From JBDREC01 sp043820105 [NCBI: Pseudomonadota bacterium] (GTDB taxonomy: Bacteria; Bdellovibrionota_F; JAHFAK01): a stretch of DNA of 8,193 bases. Shown piece after piece: positions 125 to 7,485 of this stretch (position 1 is the first letter of the stretch; each line of letters opens with the position of its first letter). A program made the position numbers and the translations under genes. Below the pieces are notes generated by a model. That model was not told where the DNA came from, ran no database searches, and was given only the letters and a program-made list of their open reading frames with translations. The stretch is taken from NCBI GenBank assembly GCA_043820105.1, contig JBDREC010000113.1, positions 1-8,193 on the forward strand, written 5' to 3'.

Positions 125-610
125 TTAAATCATTATCCTTACAATTATATTTAAATAATACCTTATAGCCGTCAAATCCAATGCTAAAATTTCTGTAAAA
201 TGAAACAAATCTCTTTCAGGATAAAGTTTTTTTATGTTAAAATCACTTAACATGCTTTTAATTTCATCATAATTTTCATCAAGATAATAAAAATTGATTT
301 TATTCAATTTCCCCCAAAAGTAGTTTGGATTTTTTTCTAACAATTTATCATTTAACTCTCTTGCTAGATCACTATTCCCTTTTCTATGATAAAGTGCTAT
401 TAGATAATTCTTAAATTGAGGTAAATTTGGATACTTTTGTATAGCTTTTTTTAATTTTTTTATAGTCCCAATTTTATTTTTTGTAGATGCCCAATACAGT
501 TTACTCATAAGATCTTTAACATCTTCATCATTGTTGTTATCATTATATAAAGGATTAAATGTAATTGTGTAATCTTTCTTTTTTAATTCATTCATAACTT
601 TTTTAACCAT
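125..610 (-). CDS. TPR-like protein, C-terminus probably truncated at an IS end
   Basis: This 161-residue soluble protein starts at ATG 610-608. Residues about 55-125 read as degenerate helical TPR-type hairpins: a YPNLPQFKNYLIALYHRKGN segment followed by LARELNDKLLEKNPNYFWGKL, the spacing expected of alternating A and B helices. It resembles bacterial TPR proteins with FNPLYND-like N-termini and a YPERD/FHF segment, which are usually much longer. The last residues (IIVRIMI) lose this character, and the stop at 127-125 lies about 16 bp from the IS21-like repeats, so the 3' end was probably lost by insertion. A one-base shift near codon 150 gives a more polar continuation (YNCKDNDLKKFLG), suggesting a frameshift as well. 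It is last in the leftward block, 50 bp after the preceding gene. Its function is unknown; a scaffold role is only the generic property of TPRs. Confidence 0.6.
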   Translation of the reverse strand: MVKKVMNELKKKDYTITFNPLYNDNNNDEDVKDLMSKLYWASTKNKIGTIKKLKKAIQKYPNLPQFKNYLIALYHRKGNSDLARELNDKLLEKNPNYFWGKLNKINFYYLDENYDEIKSMLSDFNIKKLYPERDLFHFTEILALDLTAIRYYLNIIVRIMI

Positions 611-660
611 TTATTCAATTTAAAAGATGAGATATTAAATAACGAAAGCTTTCTTTGTTT

Positions 661-846
661 TCATGCTTCAAGATACCATGATTCAATATAGTAATTACCA
701 TTAATGGGATATTCATCATTGTCATTTGCTTTTAATTCAATTGTATTGGTTTTAGGATTTAATCTGATATTATCTGAATCAGAAAGCATTATTTGATTTC
801 TATTTTCTTCTAAAAATTCAAAGCTATGAATAATTTCAGTAATCAT
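661..846 (-). CDS. small hypothetical protein coupled to the tail-completion gene
   Basis: This 61-residue protein is acidic and Asn/Asp-rich, with no membrane segment. Its ATG (846-844) overlaps the TGA stop (845-843) of the upstream gene in an ATGA arrangement, the classic sign of translational coupling, and this supports it as a real gene despite its size. I do not recognise the family. The N-terminal half (ITEIIHSFEFLEENRNQI) should be helical and the C-terminal half (IRLNPKTNTIEL, NYYIESWYL) suggests beta strands. Its place directly after a virion-morphogenesis gene suggests a minor structural or assembly protein of the same phage module, but that is inference from position only. Confidence 0.6.
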   Translation of the reverse strand: MITEIIHSFEFLEENRNQIMLSDSDNIRLNPKTNTIELKANDNDEYPINGNYYIESWYLEA

Positions 847-1460
847 TTTATCCTCAAAGCTTTATTAACAGCATTATTCCATCTTTTTTTCGATTGTCGG
901 ATTAATTCACCATCTTTGAAAGAAATATCAAAAAATCTTCTTGGTGGAATTGTGATATACTTAGTATTAGCCGATAATGGTTTTACTCCTGGAACTTCTC
1001 CTGCCAAATAATAAAAATAAGCTCTCATCTTTTTCGTAACTTTAATTGTCCTACCATCATGTAAAGTTTTAGCTATGTTGATAAGTGGTTTGCCTTTTTT
1101 ATTTTTGACTTGTCTTAAAACTCCAATAAAAGCCAGATAAGGAGATATGATTTTCCTTGTGATCGATCTTGTTAAATCACCTTTATCAACTAATGGTTTC
1201 GAAGATTTTTTTATTAAAACAGTAAGTGGAGCATTGTCAGGTGGGACAGATTTTCGAATAACTTGTTTAACCTTTTTAATCGTATAAATGGCATTTTGTT
1301 TAGTAGCTAAACCTACTTCTTTTCTTAAGTTTTCTTTGAATTGTTTAGTACAATGCCTTATAAACTTATCCCAATTTTCATCAAGTTTAATTGTCATGAT
1401 AGGTTTATTGTAGCAGTATGATGAAAGCCTGACAATTGGATCAATTACAATTTCTTTCAA
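843..1460 (-). CDS. phage virion morphogenesis / tail completion protein (gp10-like)
   Basis: The protein matches the pattern of phage virion-morphogenesis and HK97 gp10-like proteins, which complete the head-tail interface or tail tube. It has a basic helical N-terminal half, then APLT...IKKSSKPLVDKGDLTRSI at residues about 77-100 (the hallmark region in which a substrate-like SSKPLVDTG precedes an L-x-x-S-I strand), and ITIPPRRFF at 169-177 (the usual IPARPF near the C-terminus). The frame opens with TTG at 1460, 6 bp after the previous stop. An internal ATG at 1397-1395 gives 184 residues beginning MTIKLDENW and may be the true start, because the first 21 residues do not look like the family. 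No strong ribosome site separates the two. Its stop overlaps the start of the 61-residue gene. It is the most confidently phage-derived gene here, together with the connector at 3950-4660. Confidence 0.75.
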   Translation of the reverse strand: MKEIVIDPIVRLSSYCYNKPIMTIKLDENWDKFIRHCTKQFKENLRKEVGLATKQNAIYTIKKVKQVIRKSVPPDNAPLTVLIKKSSKPLVDKGDLTRSITRKIISPYLAFIGVLRQVKNKKGKPLINIAKTLHDGRTIKVTKKMRAYFYYLAGEVPGVKPLSANTKYITIPPRRFFDISFKDGELIRQSKKRWNNAVNKALRIK

Positions 1461-1466
1461 TTAGTT

Positions 1467-3260
1467 TTATTTTATCTGATCTGTTTGTCTTTTTTTTTCT
1501 AGTTCTTGTTCCAAATATCTTCTAAATTCAAGTTCAAACATGTCGTCATCAGTGCACATATCACATTTAAATTCACTTTTTTCAAGAGGTTTTATTAAAT
1601 CTTCTGACCAAACAGGTATTGTATTTGGTCTAAAAACAATTAAATCAATTGGATTTTTATAATCTATTTCTTCTTCTAATGTGCTTATTATCCAAGGATA
1701 ATTTGACTGCCCTTTACCTTTTGAAAAAACAAATCCATTATTAAGATAAGTTACTGTGTGCTTTTTTGGATTACCTCTATCATTAATTTTTTTATAAATT
1801 ACATCTCCAAATTTTAAATCTTGAATATTAACAATACTTATTCTGTCATAATACATATCAACCATTCGTTTAAGTGTAATACCTGTATTTTGATTAGGAT
1901 AGAATCCATAATTTGGAAGAACAACATCATCAGCCCAAAAATGAGAAGTAGTATGGTGACAATTTGGTCCATCTTCCTGGTTTCCATCCAACACTTCATT
2001 AGTTGGAAATGAATTAAGTCTTTTCTTTGGCATACTAGGTAAAATATTCTTAATGCTAAATTTTATCATTTTATTTTTTCTAATTTTTCCTTTTTCAATT
2101 TTAATTAATGACAATAAATTATCTTTCATTTCATTAAAATCTCGTGGCCCTGCAAAAACCTGGATTATTTCTTCAATTGCTTCATTGTTAAATGGTAATT
2201 CAAATGTGATATCATATGTAAAATAACAATATTGTTGTGCGCTATCACAAATACTTATTCTTTTATGTAATAAATTAAAATTATCGTATTCAATAATTTC
2301 AATTGGAGAAAAATTATTTTGAAGTTTAATGAATAATTTAAGTCCATTGTTTCTTAGAATCTTTCTTTTTTGATTATCATTTAATAAATTGCTTTCAGAT
2401 ATTCTAACAACTTGATCATTATAAATATATGCTGGATAATCAGATCCAAATAATACTCTATCAAATCCAAATTCTTCCCATGATTCAATCACATCTTGAT
2501 TAACCGGGAAATCACCGGAAGTATCTAAATAAATGTTTTTTTCAATTCCAGGATTATCATTAAAATATTTTCCAATTATTCTCAATCCATCAAATCCAAT
2601 CGAAGATTTTTCTCCAGAATGAGCAATAATAAATTTTGCATCAGGATTAATTACAGCTGTATCTATCAAAAACTCTATTTCTTCTTTTATTCCTTGATTT
2701 AAATTATAATTTTGCTCATGGAAATGATATGTTGTTTCAAAGTGAATTAATAAAATGCCAGCTTTTTTATTAACCATTGAACTTAATTTTCTAAATCTTT
2801 TTTTCCTCTTGGAATTTGTATATAAATATCCACCGTCACTTTCAAGATGTAACTTAATTCCAACCATACCTGACAACATGAAACAATCATGCACCTTTTG
2901 TAGGTAATCCTTCCATTCAATATTTATTCCACAAATTCCTAATACATTATCAGGATTTTCTAGATGTTTTTCCTCAAGTATTTCATTTAAATGATCTCTA
3001 ATATCTTCATTGTAACGACTATCTTTATTAAATGGTTTAATTCTGTAACTATCTGATATTAAAAGATGTTTATCTGCTTTTTCTTCAAAAGAATTGCCGC
3101 TTTGATCAATTGTTTGAATAATTGTTCCATATCCCCATTTAGATTGAGCTCTTTCATCTATTTGATGGACATGGAAATCAATTAGTTGATAATCTAATGA
3201 ATAACTTGAATTGATTATAATACAAGTTAGTATTAGGATATGTTTAAATATTTTTTTCAA
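1467..3260 (-). CDS. secreted amidohydrolase (amidohydrolase_2-type) fused to NlpC/P60-like domain
   Basis: The 597-residue protein begins with a signal peptide (basic MKKIFKH, hydrophobic core about 8-17, SSYS near 21), so it should act outside the cytoplasm. Residues about 25-312 form a metal-dependent TIM-barrel hydrolase of the amidohydrolase_2 type: DFHVH with H30 and H32, GIKLH (K136, H138), LLIHF (H173), IIAHSGE (H214) and VLFGSDYP with D274, the expected order of metal and catalytic ligands. A linker (about 313-425) carries CDSAQQYC. A second domain (about 428-545) has a GPNCHH cysteine (C434), FGDVIY, KKHTVTYL (H501) and FSKGKGQS, a Cys-then-His pattern like NlpC/P60 papain-fold peptidases or amidases. 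The C-terminus ends in a charged helix with CDMC. Substrate is unknown; a role on peptidoglycan or a peptide conjugate is inference. It lies between phage head-closure and tail-completion genes on the same strand, with 250 bp of AT-rich non-coding DNA upstream (3261-3510) that could hold its own promoter; I see no convincing consensus there. Confidence 0.75.
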   Translation of the reverse strand: MKKIFKHILILTCIIINSSYSLDYQLIDFHVHQIDERAQSKWGYGTIIQTIDQSGNSFEEKADKHLLISDSYRIKPFNKDSRYNEDIRDHLNEILEEKHLENPDNVLGICGINIEWKDYLQKVHDCFMLSGMVGIKLHLESDGGYLYTNSKRKKRFRKLSSMVNKKAGILLIHFETTYHFHEQNYNLNQGIKEEIEFLIDTAVINPDAKFIIAHSGEKSSIGFDGLRIIGKYFNDNPGIEKNIYLDTSGDFPVNQDVIESWEEFGFDRVLFGSDYPAYIYNDQVVRISESNLLNDNQKRKILRNNGLKLFIKLQNNFSPIEIIEYDNFNLLHKRISICDSAQQYCYFTYDITFELPFNNEAIEEIIQVFAGPRDFNEMKDNLLSLIKIEKGKIRKNKMIKFSIKNILPSMPKKRLNSFPTNEVLDGNQEDGPNCHHTTSHFWADDVVLPNYGFYPNQNTGITLKRMVDMYYDRISIVNIQDLKFGDVIYKKINDRGNPKKHTVTYLNNGFVFSKGKGQSNYPWIISTLEEEIDYKNPIDLIVFRPNTIPVWSEDLIKPLEKSEFKCDMCTDDDMFELEFRRYLEQELEKKRQTDQIK

Positions 3261-3510
3261 TTTTAAATTCTAATTTTACATTCATCAAAAACTTCAATTA
3301 TCCATTAATGCTGGATTCTTTATAATAACTTTGCAATAATCGCGCCATCTATACTCTTTATATAAATACATAATATTAGATAGTTATAAATTTAACTCTT
3401 AGTTTACATTAAATAAAACTGAAATTTCTCAGCATATTTGAAATTTTTAGCAAAATTAAAGCGATTTTATTAGTTTTTGTAAGACTTTCTTCTTAAAAGA
3501 GTTTTAATAG

Positions 3511-3900
3511 CTATATTCCGTCAATAAAAATAAACCACAACAATTTTAAGGTTGATCCATCTTGATCTGAATAATGACCATGATTCTGAATTTGGACTAT
3601 TTGGTATTTTATAGATTCATTTCCGATTTTTATAATTTTATCTCCGATTTTTGGATTATATCCAATTGAAGATAAATCTTTATTTCGAACAACTAAATAG
3701 CCTGTAACATCTTTTGTAATTCCCGTATTATCAATACTAACTTCAGAATCTTTGTTATATTCGATCTGAGCTTTGATTATAAATTCTGATTGATATCTTA
3801 ATAACTTCTTTAGTTCTCTTGCTTCATCATCATATCTTTGTGAAGCTGTACCGATCTGCTTAATTGTAACATTTATTGTATGAAATAAGTTAGGAATCAT
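3511..3900 (-). CDS. probable phage head closure / head-tail adaptor protein
   Basis: This 129-residue protein has no signal or membrane segment and starts at ATG 3900-3898. Its features fit small head-tail joining proteins: an N-terminal strand (TINVTIKQ), the phrase ASQRYDDEARE at about 19-29, a strand carrying KAQIEY at 43-48, and a C-terminal beta-rich half containing GYNPKIGDKIIKIGNESIKYQIVQI, where 'gD-I-ig...y-I-v-i' is the usual layout for head-closure and adaptor proteins that follow a gp6-like connector. Its position, 49 bp after such a connector and on the same strand, supports this strongly; the sequence match alone is modest. In tailed phages such a protein sits between connector and tail and seals packaged DNA. 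A palindromic repeat occupies the gap to the upstream gene. Confidence 0.6.
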   Translation of the reverse strand: MIPNLFHTINVTIKQIGTASQRYDDEARELKKLLRYQSEFIIKAQIEYNKDSEVSIDNTGITKDVTGYLVVRNKDLSSIGYNPKIGDKIIKIGNESIKYQIVQIQNHGHYSDQDGSTLKLLWFIFIDGI

Positions 3901-3912
3901 AAATTAGACTTT

Positions 3913-3965
3913 GGTTATTAGCGATTGGCTTTTGGCTAAGAGCTAAAAGCTAATTGCCAATAGCC
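3913..3965. repeat. 53-bp imperfect palindrome (GGCTATTAGC-type) overlapping a gene end
   Basis: The arms 3924-3937 (ATTGGCTTTTGGCT) and 3941-3954 pair at 12 of 14 positions around a 3-nt AAG loop. Outer arms 3913-3923 and 3955-3965 pair at 8 of 11. The unit resembles the dispersed GGCTATTAGCTTTTAGCC-type palindromes found in many copies in some AT-rich bacterial genomes, a REP/MITE-like class. It contains the TAG stop of the connector gene (3952-3950), so that protein's final residues (VAIGN) are encoded by repeat DNA. It may also fold as a hairpin in the transcript between the connector and head-closure genes. There is no T-tract, so it is not a convincing intrinsic terminator. Confidence 0.6.
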
Positions 3966-4660
3966 ACAATAGCTTTAATTGGTCTTCTATACATCATAAG
4001 TATTTCATCAATTTCTTTATCTCCTGTAATTGATAAATGGCTGGAAGAACTTGAACTAAATTTCACTGAATGCTTATCGGTTTTTTCTTCAATAATTGTT
4101 TTACCAACTGAATGATCACGATTTGCTAAATTTGATAAATCTTTGATAACTAATTTTCTATGCGCATATTTTATCATTTGCGGGGGATTACCACTTTGAT
4201 CGACAAAACCAAAAACTCCTTTAATAATTTGATTTTGTTTGCCTTTTTCAAATATTCTTCTACATGAACTTCCAGAATAAATATTGCTAGAATCTAAAGT
4301 TTTAAGTTTAATCCTGGGATTAAATCGGTCCTTTGGATAGTCTCTATTATAAACAACAACATAATCTTCCTCTAATTCATCTTCTGAGTCATTGATTTTT
4401 ATATATTCAATGGAAATGATAGGAATACCAAAAAACAAGATATCCGAATTATTGCCATCAAGATAGAGCGTTTTAGTTTTTGGTAGAAAAAATTGGCCTG
4501 TTATTTGATCAATAAACTCTTGCCACATGATTATTTTTTGTAGGAGCTTTTCATCATTTGCATCTGTGATTGATACTCCTTCATCTCTAATATCTTGAAC
4601 TGTAATATAAGTATCATTCGAGGAACCTTCAGATTGAAGTAATACTTCAAACTCTTCCAT
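3950..4660 (-). CDS. phage gp6-like head-tail connector protein
   Basis: This 236-residue protein has the profile of gp6-like connectors, which form a ring beneath the portal. It shows YITVQDIRDEG at 18-28 followed by a helical segment ending FIDQITGQFFLPKT (49-62; the family's 'i-x-x-x-TGR-F-P' motif), then LYLDGN and LFFGIPIISIEYIKI (74-89; the usual 'L-dG-g...L-l-PiisI'), and EDYVVVYNRDYPKDRFNPRIKL with the typical dyv.ynR. A Ser-rich patch (SSSSSS at 202-207) precedes the C-terminus. Family proteins normally begin just before YITV. Here about 16 residues precede it, and the frame stays open upstream of the ATG (NWYWKITSTAGEQCG, to a stop near 4717), so the 5' end may be altered by a junction. 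A palindromic repeat supplies the last few codons. It is first in the surviving phage block. Confidence 0.7.
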   Translation of the reverse strand: MEEFEVLLQSEGSSNDTYITVQDIRDEGVSITDANDEKLLQKIIMWQEFIDQITGQFFLPKTKTLYLDGNNSDILFFGIPIISIEYIKINDSEDELEEDYVVVYNRDYPKDRFNPRIKLKTLDSSNIYSGSSCRRIFEKGKQNQIIKGVFGFVDQSGNPPQMIKYAHRKLVIKDLSNLANRDHSVGKTIIEEKTDKHSVKFSSSSSSHLSITGDKEIDEILMMYRRPIKAIVAIGN

Positions 4661-4727
4661 CCCACACTGTTCACCTGCTGTGGAAGTAATTTTCCAATAC
4701 CAATTAAAAAATAATTAGATAATTTTC

Positions 4728-4756
4728 TTGACAATTGGATAATAATTGGATAAAAT
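4728..4756 (+). promoter_or_regulatory. sigma-70-type promoter embedded in a palindrome
   Basis: A perfect -35 hexamer TTGACA (4728-4733) is followed after exactly 17 bp by TAAAAT (4751-4756), one mismatch from the -10 consensus. It points rightward into the repeat-protein fragment. The spacer and -10 lie inside the near-palindrome at 4732-4777, an arrangement typical of a promoter with an overlapping dimeric-repressor operator. If the host is from Bacteroidota, whose promoters use TAnnTTTG instead, the match would be accidental or would mark imported DNA. No regulator gene is visible in the window. Confidence 0.4.
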
Positions 4757-4777
4757 TATCCCATTATTATCCAATTG
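4732..4777. repeat. 46-bp near-perfect palindrome in the divergent junction
   Basis: The outer arms CAATTGGATAATAAT (4732-4746) and ATTATTATCCAATTG (4763-4777) are perfect 15-bp inverted repeats. Inside them GGATAA and TTATCC pair again, leaving one mismatched pair and a central AA. ATTGGATAA also occurs twice as a direct repeat in the left half. The repeat lies between the leftward phage block and the rightward fragment, so it is downstream of neither and is an unlikely terminator. An operator, a recombination end or a small transposable palindrome are the plausible readings. Confidence 0.65.
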
Positions 4778-4785
4778 CGAGCTGA

Positions 4786-5070
4786 TTATGCATTCTTTTA
4801 TGGGTCCATCGTTCAGGACCGATTAGCGCAGCAGGTGATCCTTATGGAAGAATAGTTATTTCCTGGGGAGTCTTGACAGATGGAGATGATACAATTTATT
4901 CACTATTAGCTACAGCAGATGGCAAGATTTACAGTGATGATAAATTCATTGTGGAAAGAACAGACAACAATGGAGGAATAAATGCATGTATGCTAAATGA
5001 TGGCAGATTTGCAATTGCACATAGCTCTGTGGATAGAGCAAAGATTAAAGTTTACAATAATTTGCACTAA
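4786..5070 (+). pseudogene. C-terminal fragment of a repeat protein (5'-truncated)
   Basis: The frame is open from the TGA at 4783-4785 to TAA at 5068-5070. Protein-like sequence begins around 4822 (ISAAGDPYGRIVISW) and runs through DGDDTIYSLLATADGKIYSDD and INACMLNDGRFAIAHSS to the stop. This matches the rhythm of beta-rich surface repeats of the type 'G-x-P-x-VA-L-x-DGRFVVSWQS...YA.LFdsdG', so what remains is roughly one and a half terminal repeats. There is no ATG; the only late start is TTG at 4873, inside the repeat, which argues for a remnant rather than a gene. It is the only coding-like sequence on the plus strand in the left two thirds of the window. The near-palindrome 45 bp upstream probably marks the breakpoint. 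Original function unknown, likely extracellular. Confidence 0.5.
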
Positions 5071-5160
5071 GATTTAAATCAGTCTCAAAATAAAAATGTT
5101 ACTACTCCATTGATACATTCCCACGCATTTTCATGTCTTCTATTATTGGAATCAAATCAG

Positions 5161-5235
5161 GAATTAATTTTGGTGCCAGGCTCAATTGAAATTTAATTTT
5201 GAATTTTGAATTAATTATGGTGCCATGCTCGATTT
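5161..5235 (+). repeat. pair of 28-bp direct repeats
   Basis: Copies at 5161-5188 and 5208-5235 share GAATTAATT, TGGTGCCA and GCTC, with four mismatches in 28 positions. They are separated by 19 bp of AT-rich DNA. They lie in the 261-bp non-coding gap 5071-5331, where a weaker partial echo (GAATTAATTAGATCTTAAGCTC) occurs near 5296. I see no gene, hairpin or terminator in this gap. They may be decayed intergenic repeats or duplication footprints at the junction. Confidence 0.45.
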
Positions 5236-5331
5236 GGGATGCAAAAATCCGTTTTTTTTACAGGCTATTTTCTCAGAGTGAAACAAAGGGAATTTTGAAT
5301 TAATTAGATCTTAAGCTCAATAAGTTAAAAG

Positions 5332-6252
5332 TTACAGGCCGTCGTTTTCACATGCTAAAATCTTTGCTAGCTTTTCTTTTTGTGAATCTTCTGCATAAAG
5401 TTCAAAATATTGCATTAAAATAACATCATCAAGCAACTCTAATAATCTAGAATACTTAGCTAGCTTTTTTTCAGCAGCCATATACTTATTTATTAAACCA
5501 CGTTTTTGATTATATAAATCTTTTAATAATTGAAAATCATCCATCTTGTTTATTTCTTTAAGTAACTTATTGCATTTATCTTTATCAGTACAAAACAAAA
5601 CATATTGAGGTGAATATTCATCATAAAGCGCAATATAATCGGGGTTATTATGAATAAAGCTCCACAAATCAGCTTTCACTTGCTTATATGAATCATGCAA
5701 TTCTCCATAGGTGCTATCAATGGAATCTGCTTTTTCTTTTAAAGTAAAGTATAATTGCTCAAGATCAAATGGCTTTAAGTCATCATCTAAATCCAGCTTT
5801 TTTATTAATCCTTCAATTGCAGCTTTTTGTGAAAGATCTGCATATTTCTTAATTTGTCTTAAACTTAATGTTCTATTAATTTTCAGATCCTCAGAATTTA
5901 ACATATCATAAGAAACTATTTTTCTTAAAAATTCACCCGAAGTTTTGATTGGCTCATCTATAGTATCCAATGACATAAGTGCATAGTGGTGAGCTTCATA
6001 AAAAGAAATAAATCCATTTTTATCAAAATCTGCGTTCACAGAAATTGAATCAGCTCTTGCAGATTCACCTTTTATGGCTTCAAAGAATTTTATAGAATAT
6101 TCATCATAATCTGGATTTTTAGTGTCTGGAGAGCAACCTGCTGCTGTTTTATTTTTGGGGGTTGCAAAAAAACCACAAAAATCCTTTTCTGTAAAATCAT
6201 TATCAGGATTTGCATTTTCAAAAATTAAGTTAGAAAAGGATCCGGCAAAGCA
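5332..6252 (-). pseudogene. 5'-truncated caspase/legumain-like (clan CD) peptidase fragment with EF-hand
   Basis: The minus-strand frame is open for 306 residues after a TAA at 6255-6253. Its first residues are CFAGSF, matching the QCFSGGF-type catalytic-cysteine motif of bacterial caspase/C13-like peptidases, followed by FCGFFATPKNKTAAGCSPD and YSIKFFEAI, the usual post-cysteine strand and helix. A complete EF-hand loop lies at 75-86 (D75, D77, N79, G80, I82, E86), then EAHHYAL and DTIDEPIKTS, which typically follow it. Residues about 105-306 are charged and helical (linker/coiled coil). The upstream half, including the catalytic His, is absent: upstream frames show nothing similar before the IS91-like end at 6329. 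No ATG lies near the start; a GTG at 6039-6037 would give only the EF-hand and C-terminal helices. The TAA may be a mutated CAA (Gln). The product is inactive unless a partner supplies the other half. Confidence 0.6.
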
Positions 6253-6328: not shown

Positions 6329-6376
6329 AAAAGTCCACCAAGTGTATGTAAGCTTACATACACTTGGTGGACTTTT
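6329..6376. repeat. perfect 48-bp palindrome at the 3' side of the IS91-like transposase
   Basis: The sequence reads identically on both strands from 6329 to 6376 with no mismatch and no spacer (centre between 6352 and 6353, inside AAGCTT). It would form a 24-bp cruciform arm, or an RNA hairpin with the usual minimal loop. TTTTT at 6373-6377 gives it terminator character for plus-strand transcripts. On the minus strand it lies 83 bp beyond the transposase stop. The tetranucleotide CAAG (6325-6328) directly abuts it, matching the GAAC/CAAG target next to which IS91 elements insert at their origin end. I read it as the element's origin-proximal hairpin; a transcription terminator is the alternative, and both may be true. 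Confidence 0.75.
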
Positions 6377-6459: not shown

Positions 6460-7485
6460 TTAAAGCATCATTTCTTGATGATCATCATAAATATATTCAA
6501 TACTTTCTGACACCTCATCAAACTTCGGAAAAGTAATCTTTGGCGGTGCTCGTTTAAACCAAGGAACAATTGGGATTATTTCTTCCTCTTTTTGCAAAAA
6601 CCTTTTAAGCTTCATTTCCTTACCACATTTTGGGCAAATTGTCGGAAGTTCACCAAAAATCCTTGCTATTAATGAAGCCCATCCAATATTTACTGGTTTA
6701 TCTTCATCTATTGAAACTGATGCCTTGTTATCATCTTTATTTTCTTTCTTTGGCAATGTCCTTTGTACATTAGAAGCATAAAATCCACAATATCTTCTTA
6801 CATTTTGATAATGGTCGGGGATATGTGATGTAATAAGTGCAATAAAATCAAGTGGTGAAAAGGATAATGTAAGTCCATTCTTGGTTTTGTAATATACAAT
6901 GTTATTCTTATATTCAAGCCTGCTTACAGCTACAGGTGGACGACCTGCATAACTTAACCTTGAAATCAAACCTTCACGATCATCTAAGTCAAATGGATCA
7001 CTTGCATGAACATGAAATCCTGAATGTTTCCATGATAATAAGTTATCTGAAAGTTTTTCTGACAAAACTTCCTTTTTCACCATAAGCTTTATCAATATTT
7101 CCCTGAAAAACTGTGTGATCTTGCTTACGTTCCAATCATTGCATGGATGAAATGTAATGTTCTCTTTGTCACGATAATCGAATAATCCATTTGAAGTTAT
7201 TTGATGAAGATGAGGATTCGCATTCAATTCATCTCCATGCGATTGAATCAAAGCAACAATTCCTGGTCTTAACTTTTTTATGATCTTACCATTACTAAGA
7301 GCAAGGCATAATGATTTATAAAGACCATTAAGACGGAGGTGAAATAATCTTATTCTTTTGGGAAGCCGAAAAAGTAATAACAACAGAAGCAAAACAATTT
7401 CAAAACCATGAGCTGCTGTTTTATGTGCATGGCCGCATCCAGATGAAGGTTCCATATTAAATTCTGATGTAAACTTGGATGCCAA
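6460..7485 (-). CDS. IS91-family HUH transposase, N-terminal zinc domain missing or degraded
   Basis: This 341-residue rolling-circle transposase would nick one strand and attach through a tyrosine. It shows FRLPKRIRLF (39-48, the family's 'vlTlPkrlR'), NPHLHQI with the metal-binding HUH pair H92 and H94, FHVHA (157-161), RLSYAGRPPVAVSRL with the presumed nucleophile Y179 (classic IS91 enzymes have two tyrosines here; only one is visible), SPLDFIALITSHIPDHYQNVRRYCGFY (210-236) and a closing zinc ribbon half CPKCGKEMKLKRFL (284-297). The N-terminal Cys/His-rich zinc domain is reduced to about 38 odd residues (GCGHAHKTAAHG plus a VLLLLLLLF run), making the protein shorter than usual for the family. 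The TTG start at 7485 is uncertain; ATG 7455-7453 is the alternative. Activity is doubtful for lack of the N-terminal domain, although the core motifs are intact. Confidence 0.85.
   Translation of the reverse strand: MASKFTSEFNMEPSSGCGHAHKTAAHGFEIVLLLLLLLFRLPKRIRLFHLRLNGLYKSLCLALSNGKIIKKLRPGIVALIQSHGDELNANPHLHQITSNGLFDYRDKENITFHPCNDWNVSKITQFFREILIKLMVKKEVLSEKLSDNLLSWKHSGFHVHASDPFDLDDREGLISRLSYAGRPPVAVSRLEYKNNIVYYKTKNGLTLSFSPLDFIALITSHIPDHYQNVRRYCGFYASNVQRTLPKKENKDDNKASVSIDEDKPVNIGWASLIARIFGELPTICPKCGKEMKLKRFLQKEEEIIPIVPWFKRAPPKITFPKFDEVSESIEYIYDDHQEMML

Follow-up and report, generated by a model that had tools for sequence, protein, structure and literature searches.

Enzymes of the Amidohydro_2 family (PF04909), among them ACMSD, the gamma-resorcylate and 2,3-dihydroxybenzoate decarboxylases and 4-oxalomesaconate hydratase, carry their active-site residues in the order HxH, Lys, His, His, Asp. 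NlpC/P60 hydrolases (C40, PF00877), to which the D,L-endopeptidases MepS, RipA and CwlO belong, are papain-fold enzymes. The window analysed here, i.e. the whole stretch of 8,193 nt with a GC content of 29%, contains a gene in which domains resembling both kinds of enzyme are joined behind a putative export signal. Its product shares the residue order of the Amidohydro_2 enzymes and differs from them by the signal-like N-terminus, a cysteine pair found in exported relatives and the papain-fold partner; the substrates of these enzymes cannot be transferred to it. The C-terminal domain is predicted to resemble NlpC/P60 in its fold, with a cysteine at the start of a helix, a histidine on a later strand and a GD motif before this histidine, but it has no Pfam match and a serine where the third residue of the NlpC/P60 site is histidine. 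According to profile comparisons in both directions, it is the same domain as in a family of exported papain-fold proteins (the motif-containing loci and L129–L138, see below), whose other members examined stand alone or are combined with Peptidase_S8 (L023, L040) or ankyrin repeats (L014), not with an amidohydrolase.

Organisation of the fusion gene

The gene forms a single frame of 597 codons, exactly at the coordinates of the original prediction, and has the following parts:

1467–3260, minus strand: fusion gene, 597 codons, with stop codon 1467–1469 and TTG start 3258–3260
3195–3260, minus strand: predicted N-terminal export signal, about residues 1–22 (boundary by eye, from sequence and hydropathy maximum)
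2325–3188, minus strand: Amidohydrolase_2-type domain, about residues 25–312 (PF04909 E 2.3e-5, relatives, residue columns)
2007–2324, minus strand: middle region, residues 313–418 (no family match, low-confidence model)
1608–2006, minus strand: NlpC/P60-like papain-fold domain P0002, residues 419–551 (family HMM, reverse search, model)
1959–1961, minus strand: codon of C434, predicted nucleophile (sequence and alignment)
1758–1760, minus strand: codon of H501, predicted catalytic His (sequence and alignment)
1722–1724, minus strand: codon of S513, 12 residues past H501 (spacing of the third triad residue of MepS)

All residues named in the original prediction (H30, H32, K136, H138, H173, H214, D274, C434 and H501) were found at the numbers given, and the signal, the amidohydrolase domain and the NlpC/P60-like papain fold lie on one chain, as had been proposed. 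The TTG at 3260 is the earliest possible start past the preceding in-frame stop, and a ribosome-binding site is not clear. The plus strand over 1467–3260 is full of stops, and no open frame exceeded 172 codons in 300 first-order Markov sequences modelled on the window, compared to 597 here. Third-position GC values of 0.14 in the first domain, 0.14 in the linker and 0.13 in the second domain are uniform, as in one coding gene. This even codon bias argues against an assembly chimera or a sequencing error that merged two genes, and the linker contains, by eye, no second signal peptide of the kind seen in proteins related to the C-terminal half. The absence of a second copy of the fusion among the genomes searched would favour such an artefact, which we nevertheless consider extremely unlikely. 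An exported protein joining an amidohydrolase to a papain-fold cysteine hydrolase is very probably the true architecture.

The middle region appeared by eye to resemble the region preceding the cysteine in L129, L130, L132 and L134. Homology was rejected after scoring, as the value of -0.6 bits was reached by 1483 of 2874 reported shuffles.

The amidohydrolase domain and its exported relatives

Behind the signal peptide, which was called by eye and from hydropathy, the fusion protein contains the active-site set D28/H30/H32, K136, H173, H214 and D274. PF04909 alone matched the predicted TIM barrel below the Pfam cut-off (E 2.3e-5, 24.7 bits versus 26.4 bits; residues 241–310), and the assignment is secured by relatives that support this match. 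A search with the whole protein in 368 Bdellovibrionota genomes (chosen as the phylum of L001, which lies in a Halobacteriovoraceae MAG) matched 13 genomes with a best E of 6e-23, 12 of them through the amidohydrolase half and one through the C-terminal half (L063). When the fusion protein and six relatives were combined into a profile, each of the seven rows matched PF04909 at E ≤ 0.1 (best 4.6e-16). Among PDB amidohydrolases, this profile matched 3ij6 best (E 1.2e-8), followed by gamma-resorcylate decarboxylase 3s4t (E 3.9e-7); the matches to 4-oxalomesaconate hydratase and ACMSD were weak. The N-terminal half alone matched 2,3-dihydroxybenzoate decarboxylase (E 6.5e-4) and gamma-resorcylate decarboxylase (E 1.1e-3) in the PDB. 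A full-length model predicted from the single sequence had a mean pLDDT of 35 and was unusable.

Fourteen exported relatives were compared with generic amidohydrolases, for which 8 of 13 loci provided usable frames. As the latter were chosen by their DxHxH and GSD/GTD motifs, the presence of D28, H30, H32 and D274 in the generic rows is by construction. In the exported rows covering each column, D28, H30, H32, K136, H214 and D274 are invariant, and H173 is kept except in L122, which has Asp. Of the ligand pair K136/H138 that had originally been proposed, K136 is conserved in 14/14 exported relatives, whereas position 138 is Arg in 4/14, which leaves the lysine only. Both C110 and C126 occur in all 14 exported relatives versus none of the eight generic ones; judged from the sequences, such a pair would be compatible with a disulfide in an extracytoplasmic protein. 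A tree of 23 rows places the amidohydrolase domain of the fusion protein with six exported relatives (support 100/97), while the other eight fall on the side of the eight generic amidohydrolases. A single clade of exported amidohydrolases is therefore not supported.

The original prediction had described Amidohydrolase_2 enzymes as usually cytosolic. For this lineage a correction is needed: exported amidohydrolases are not unusual here, with a hydrophobic signal-like N-terminus in 13 of the 14 exported relatives and the remaining one being a fragment. By eye, a cysteine ends the signal-like segment in five of these 13. Loci L117–L120, L123 and L124 represent a second exported amidohydrolase group of Bdellovibrionota, in which five of six proteins show, also by eye, a lipoprotein-like cysteine shortly before DxHxH. 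Apart from the amidohydrolase itself, no gene was common to more than three of the 14 loci, among which L123 and L124 nearly duplicate each other. The C-terminal family was not detected near the 14 loci (best E 0.11). Partial amidohydrolase matches were obtained in 69 plasmids, with gamma-resorcylate decarboxylase as best rows, and in two records of the phage set (30% identity). These two phage records, titled ‘Staphylococcus phage’, are unannotated and may hold host DNA.

The C-terminal domain and its family

Pfam yielded zero matches for the C-terminal domain at E values up to 10. Relatives were collected by a scan for the pattern GPNC[FW]N, a motif of Bdellovibrio proteins. By record title, the 51 loci obtained are 28 of Bdellovibrionota type (including Oligoflexia), 15 from Elusimicrobia, five assigned to ‘bacterium’ and one each from Omnitrophica, Riflebacteria and Magnetovibrio. 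After removal of six loci that were cut off, too short or chance matches (L004, L007, L012, L015, L024 and L046) and merging of near-copies, the remaining 45 segments gave 34 domains for a family HMM; 30 of these entered the conservation alignment and 22 a second profile. The family HMM scored the C-terminal domain of the fusion protein with 33.3 bits, the best among 1685 scores reported for 2000 shuffles being 10.6. The score was 25.4 bits with GPNC masked and 25.8 bits for the part behind the motif alone, of which 3000 shuffles gave 2699 reported scores with a maximum of 9.3.

Because the motif route carried a risk of circularity, a reverse search was made without motif-derived sequences. 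A profile of only the fusion domain and L063 matched 10 of 270 genomes in frames that score 15–157 bits with the family HMM. They comprise the gene of L063 itself, the L003 and L035 genes, which were already in the HMM, and seven independent matches with 26 to 96 bits. A hydrophobic stretch near the N-terminus in 43 of 45 motif-family proteins makes the family look exported. By these comparisons, the C-terminal half is a member of a putatively exported papain-fold family found mainly in Bdellovibrionota and Elusimicrobiota.

This family is well supported and, as far as members were scanned, without a Pfam name: no Pfam family for the papain-fold domain was found above the cut-off, and NLPC_P60 was matched weakly by 4 of 23 scanned members (best E 0.0015), the domain of the fusion protein not being among them. 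The 22-domain profile retrieved no papain-fold entry from the PDB by sequence. A first scan of genome contigs with invented motif peptides gave 0 confirmed relatives, as did exact-peptide scans of viral contigs, for which the complete protein or its C-terminal domain was used. The motif pattern was likewise without a match in viral contigs. With tblastn, no match to the C-terminal domain was found below E 0.2 in phages and plasmids; NlpC/P60 proteins of Listeria ranked highest among the plasmid rows.

Predicted fold and active site

An AlphaFold2 model was calculated for residues 316–597 together with 30 relatives (31 sequences). Its block pLDDT values are 72–90 for residues 456–545 and 58–79 for residues 406–455, and low elsewhere. 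In this model C434 (model residue 119) opens the helix 119–128, where the block pLDDT of 66–67 is moderate, and H501 (model residue 186) lies within the strand 182–192. The best match in a structure search was E. coli MepS (Z 9.1, rmsd 3.3, 111 residues), and MepS, 4xcm and other NlpC/P60 structures were found at Z 8–9; Z values of 7–9 are modest according to the warning of the search tool itself. By title, the 50 matches listed are hydrolases of the papain fold (NlpC/P60, CHAP, C39, Tse1 and similar enzymes) or complexes that include such a hydrolase, the fold being presumed for some entries. Foldseek gave no match reaching E 0.001 and a few unrelated folds in its list. The papain-like fold on which the original prediction depended is predicted for the C-terminal part by AlphaFold2 and structure search, and the modelled positions of C434 and H501, at a helix start and on a strand, do not speak against the expected closeness of the two residues.

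The invariance of G431, P432, N433, C434 and the Asn at C+2 follows from the search pattern and therefore carries no weight. The cysteine and the preceding Asn are, however, kept in L130, L132, L134 and L135, which were found without the motif, and L129 keeps the Cys alone. H501 and K514 are conserved in all 30 aligned relatives and in the four divergent rows outside the alignment (L031, L038, L041 and L042), which have the same His/Lys spacing. The GD motif is present in 30/30 aligned relatives and in 1/4 outside, three of these rows being without it. Ser513 occupies the position 12 residues after the histidine, which we take to be that of the third triad residue in MepS. The 30 relatives have at this position Ser in 13, His in seven, Thr in six, Gln in two and Ala and Glu in one each. 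According to PMC10318531, the NLPC_P60 site is Cys-His-His, and Cys-His-Ser sites have been described, for example in Tae3. The serine in place of the third histidine suggests a Cys-His-Ser site formed by C434, H501 and S513. Position C+2 is His in the fusion protein and, by construction, Asn in the motif-selected relatives; this residue and Ser513 may indicate a changed or lost activity. We expect the C-terminal domain to be an active but variant cysteine hydrolase, and we lean towards both heads being catalytic.

Rarity of the domain combination

No second fusion of an amidohydrolase with the papain-fold domain was found among 771 genomes (368 Bdellovibrionota, 247 Elusimicrobiota as the phylum of L002, 39 Riflebacteria as that of L044 and 117 Omnitrophica as that of L007), many of which are probably incomplete drafts; the searches may also have overlooked a fusion that is strongly diverged or interrupted. 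Rescanning of 59 loci from the amidohydrolase matches with the C-terminal profile gave a best E of 0.86, and matches without a retrieved locus were judged on open-frame length alone (393 codons or less). Four long frames (G361, G329, G367 and G478) were rejected as candidates; they are explained by a different amidohydrolase frame, by frame overlap or by an adjacent gene, and are without the C-terminal family. Among the literature matches listed, no paper on such a fusion was found.

The papain-fold domain itself is modular, since relatives are also joined to subtilases. In L023 and L040 it stands behind Peptidase_S8 (E 9e-30 and 1.2e-32, respectively), and in L014 ahead of ankyrin repeats. 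The subtilase fusions are a second type with an exported hydrolase:

L023, 398–2410: subtilase with papain-fold domain (Peptidase_S8 match)
L040, 2092–4314: subtilase with papain-fold domain (Peptidase_S8 match)

The originally suspected unusual character of the pairing therefore stands for the amidohydrolase in the genomes searched, but not for the occurrence of this domain behind an exported hydrolase. Each half has relatives that are, by their sequences, separate exported proteins, and the fusion is a combination of known domain kinds, apparently singular. Separate genes for both heads occur in 2 of 14 amidohydrolase-bearing genomes versus 10 of 270 overall (Fisher p about 0.09, on the assumption that all 14 are within the 270), and co-occurrence of the heads as separate genes was rejected as not convincing. 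A joint pathway of the two heads was supported neither by gene neighbourhoods nor by co-occurrence.

Genomic surroundings

The fusion gene is an extra gene between phage connector genes, all on the same strand:

843–1460, minus strand: phage tail-completion / Neck1 gene (phrog_222, E 2e-13), directly downstream of the fusion gene
3511–3900, minus strand: phage head-tail joining gene, weak match (PF25138, E 3.7e-4, below cut-off)
3950–4660, minus strand: phage head-tail adaptor gene (phrog_442, E 3.1e-6)

This gene order is that of a phage neck module, a context absent from the original prediction. Between the stop of the fusion gene and the Neck1 frame lie 6 bp, and an AT-rich gap of 250 bp (3261–3510) separates the fusion gene from the upstream phage gene. 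Promoter-like sites numbered 26 versus 32.7 in shuffles, and no terminator-like site was found in 600–5400. Among the eight frames scanned, none matched capsid, portal or tail-tube families; for this reason, and owing to an IS91-type transposase and a start-less caspase-like frame beyond, we consider the block to be decayed. An exact-peptide scan of viral contigs with the adaptor gene gave 0 confirmed relatives.

A plus-strand frame of 94 codons (4786–5070) adjoins the adaptor gene and is possibly the end of a larger protein. The caspase-like frame (5332–6252, minus strand, 306 codons) opens mid-protein at CFAGSF, presumably a caspase-like active-site motif, and contains an EF-hand-like stretch. 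It was matched in 8 of 191 Bdellovibrionota genomes, four of them small genomes with E 2e-14 to 1e-23. Of the four best matches, three belong to open frames of 526–556 codons, so that the copy in the window seems to be without its start. The host is probably a member of the Bdellovibrionota, in view of these matches and of the closest amidohydrolase relatives found, which come from the same phylum. The IS91-type (Y2) transposase (6460–7485, minus strand; NCBIfam IS91 model E 1.7e-18, below its cut-off) shows 24–26% identity to the 20 plasmid rows listed and had no match at E 1e-20 in the 368 Bdellovibrionota genomes. A perfect 48-base palindrome is located at 6329–6376 between the caspase-like frame and the transposase. 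Further repeats are an inverted one (95%) at 4732–4777, on the upstream side of the adaptor gene, and a direct one (44 bases, 77%) at 7484 and 8007. No tRNA or Rfam family was found within the window.

Proposed function and alternative explanations

We propose that the fusion protein is an exported two-headed hydrolase and was cargo of a now-decayed prophage. It would act outside the cytoplasm, where envelope material, most likely peptidoglycan peptides, may be cut by the C-terminal cysteine head at an amide or peptide bond. The N-terminal head, presumably metal-dependent and of the amidohydrolase type represented by ACMSD and gamma-resorcylate decarboxylase, could hydrolyse or decarboxylate a linked or released small group. 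We assign this reading a probability of roughly 0.45; an envelope-derived substrate, taken by itself, is a tentative assignment that we rate below even odds. Export, fold and active-site composition are supported computationally; the substrate, the order of reactions and the role as phage cargo we infer. A still more specific scenario, in which secreted prophage cargo of a Bdellovibrionota-like, possibly predatory host acts with both heads, a cysteine endopeptidase of a so far undescribed NlpC/P60-like family and a metal-dependent amidohydrolase, sequentially on one envelope-derived substrate against prey or competitors, seems quite improbable.

The gene could also be an ordinary host gene, in which two exported host hydrolases were fused without any special joint reaction and which landed among phage genes by rearrangement in a decayed, IS-rich region. 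The plus-strand fragment upstream of the adaptor gene and the nearby start-less caspase-like frame and IS91-type transposase fit this explanation, as does the neck block being the only phage part recognised in the eight frames scanned. The 250-bp AT-rich gap at 3261–3510 points in the same direction, and closer relatives of both halves are found in bacterial genomes, the viral-contig scans having returned no confirmed relative. However, the gene shares its strand with the connector genes and is only 6 bp away from the next phage frame, and old cargo can persist in a decayed prophage. We regard an ordinary host gene as somewhat unlikely. If the gene was instead a functional part of the phage, it might encode a lysis or tail-associated enzyme, i.e. 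an exported endolysin and not cargo. Endolysins often contain an NlpC/P60 or CHAP domain (8h1i, 8tw1 and 4ct3 are among the structural matches), and the gene stands among phage structural genes. On the other hand, no lysis family was detected in the eight frames scanned, none of the PHROG matches of the fusion protein was better than E 0.045 and we know of no endolysin with an amidohydrolase head, which renders this explanation very unlikely.

A further alternative concerns the C-terminal domain, which might have no catalytic role and instead direct the amidohydrolase to its substrate as a binding or targeting module. The domain is placed at the C-terminus of the subtilases of L023 and L040 like a targeting domain, NlpC/P60 domains without catalytic function are known (RipD, by structure title) and the classic third histidine is missing. 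The conservation of H501 and K514 in every aligned and divergent row, of GD in the alignment (and in one divergent row) and of the cysteine, with or without its Asn, in relatives found without the motif looks more like an active site than a targeting module, and Cys-His-Ser sites have been described (PMC10318531). A targeting role alone is thus unlikely.

The fusion represents a concrete case of two separately exported hydrolases united in one protein. Furthermore, the comparison brought out two exported groups that are poorly or not named by Pfam, namely amidohydrolases that share two cysteines and a modular family of papain-fold proteins whose site resembles Cys-His-Ser. If the proposed action on the envelope is true, this would hint at enzymes that predatory bacteria or their phages secrete and that currently escape profile searches.
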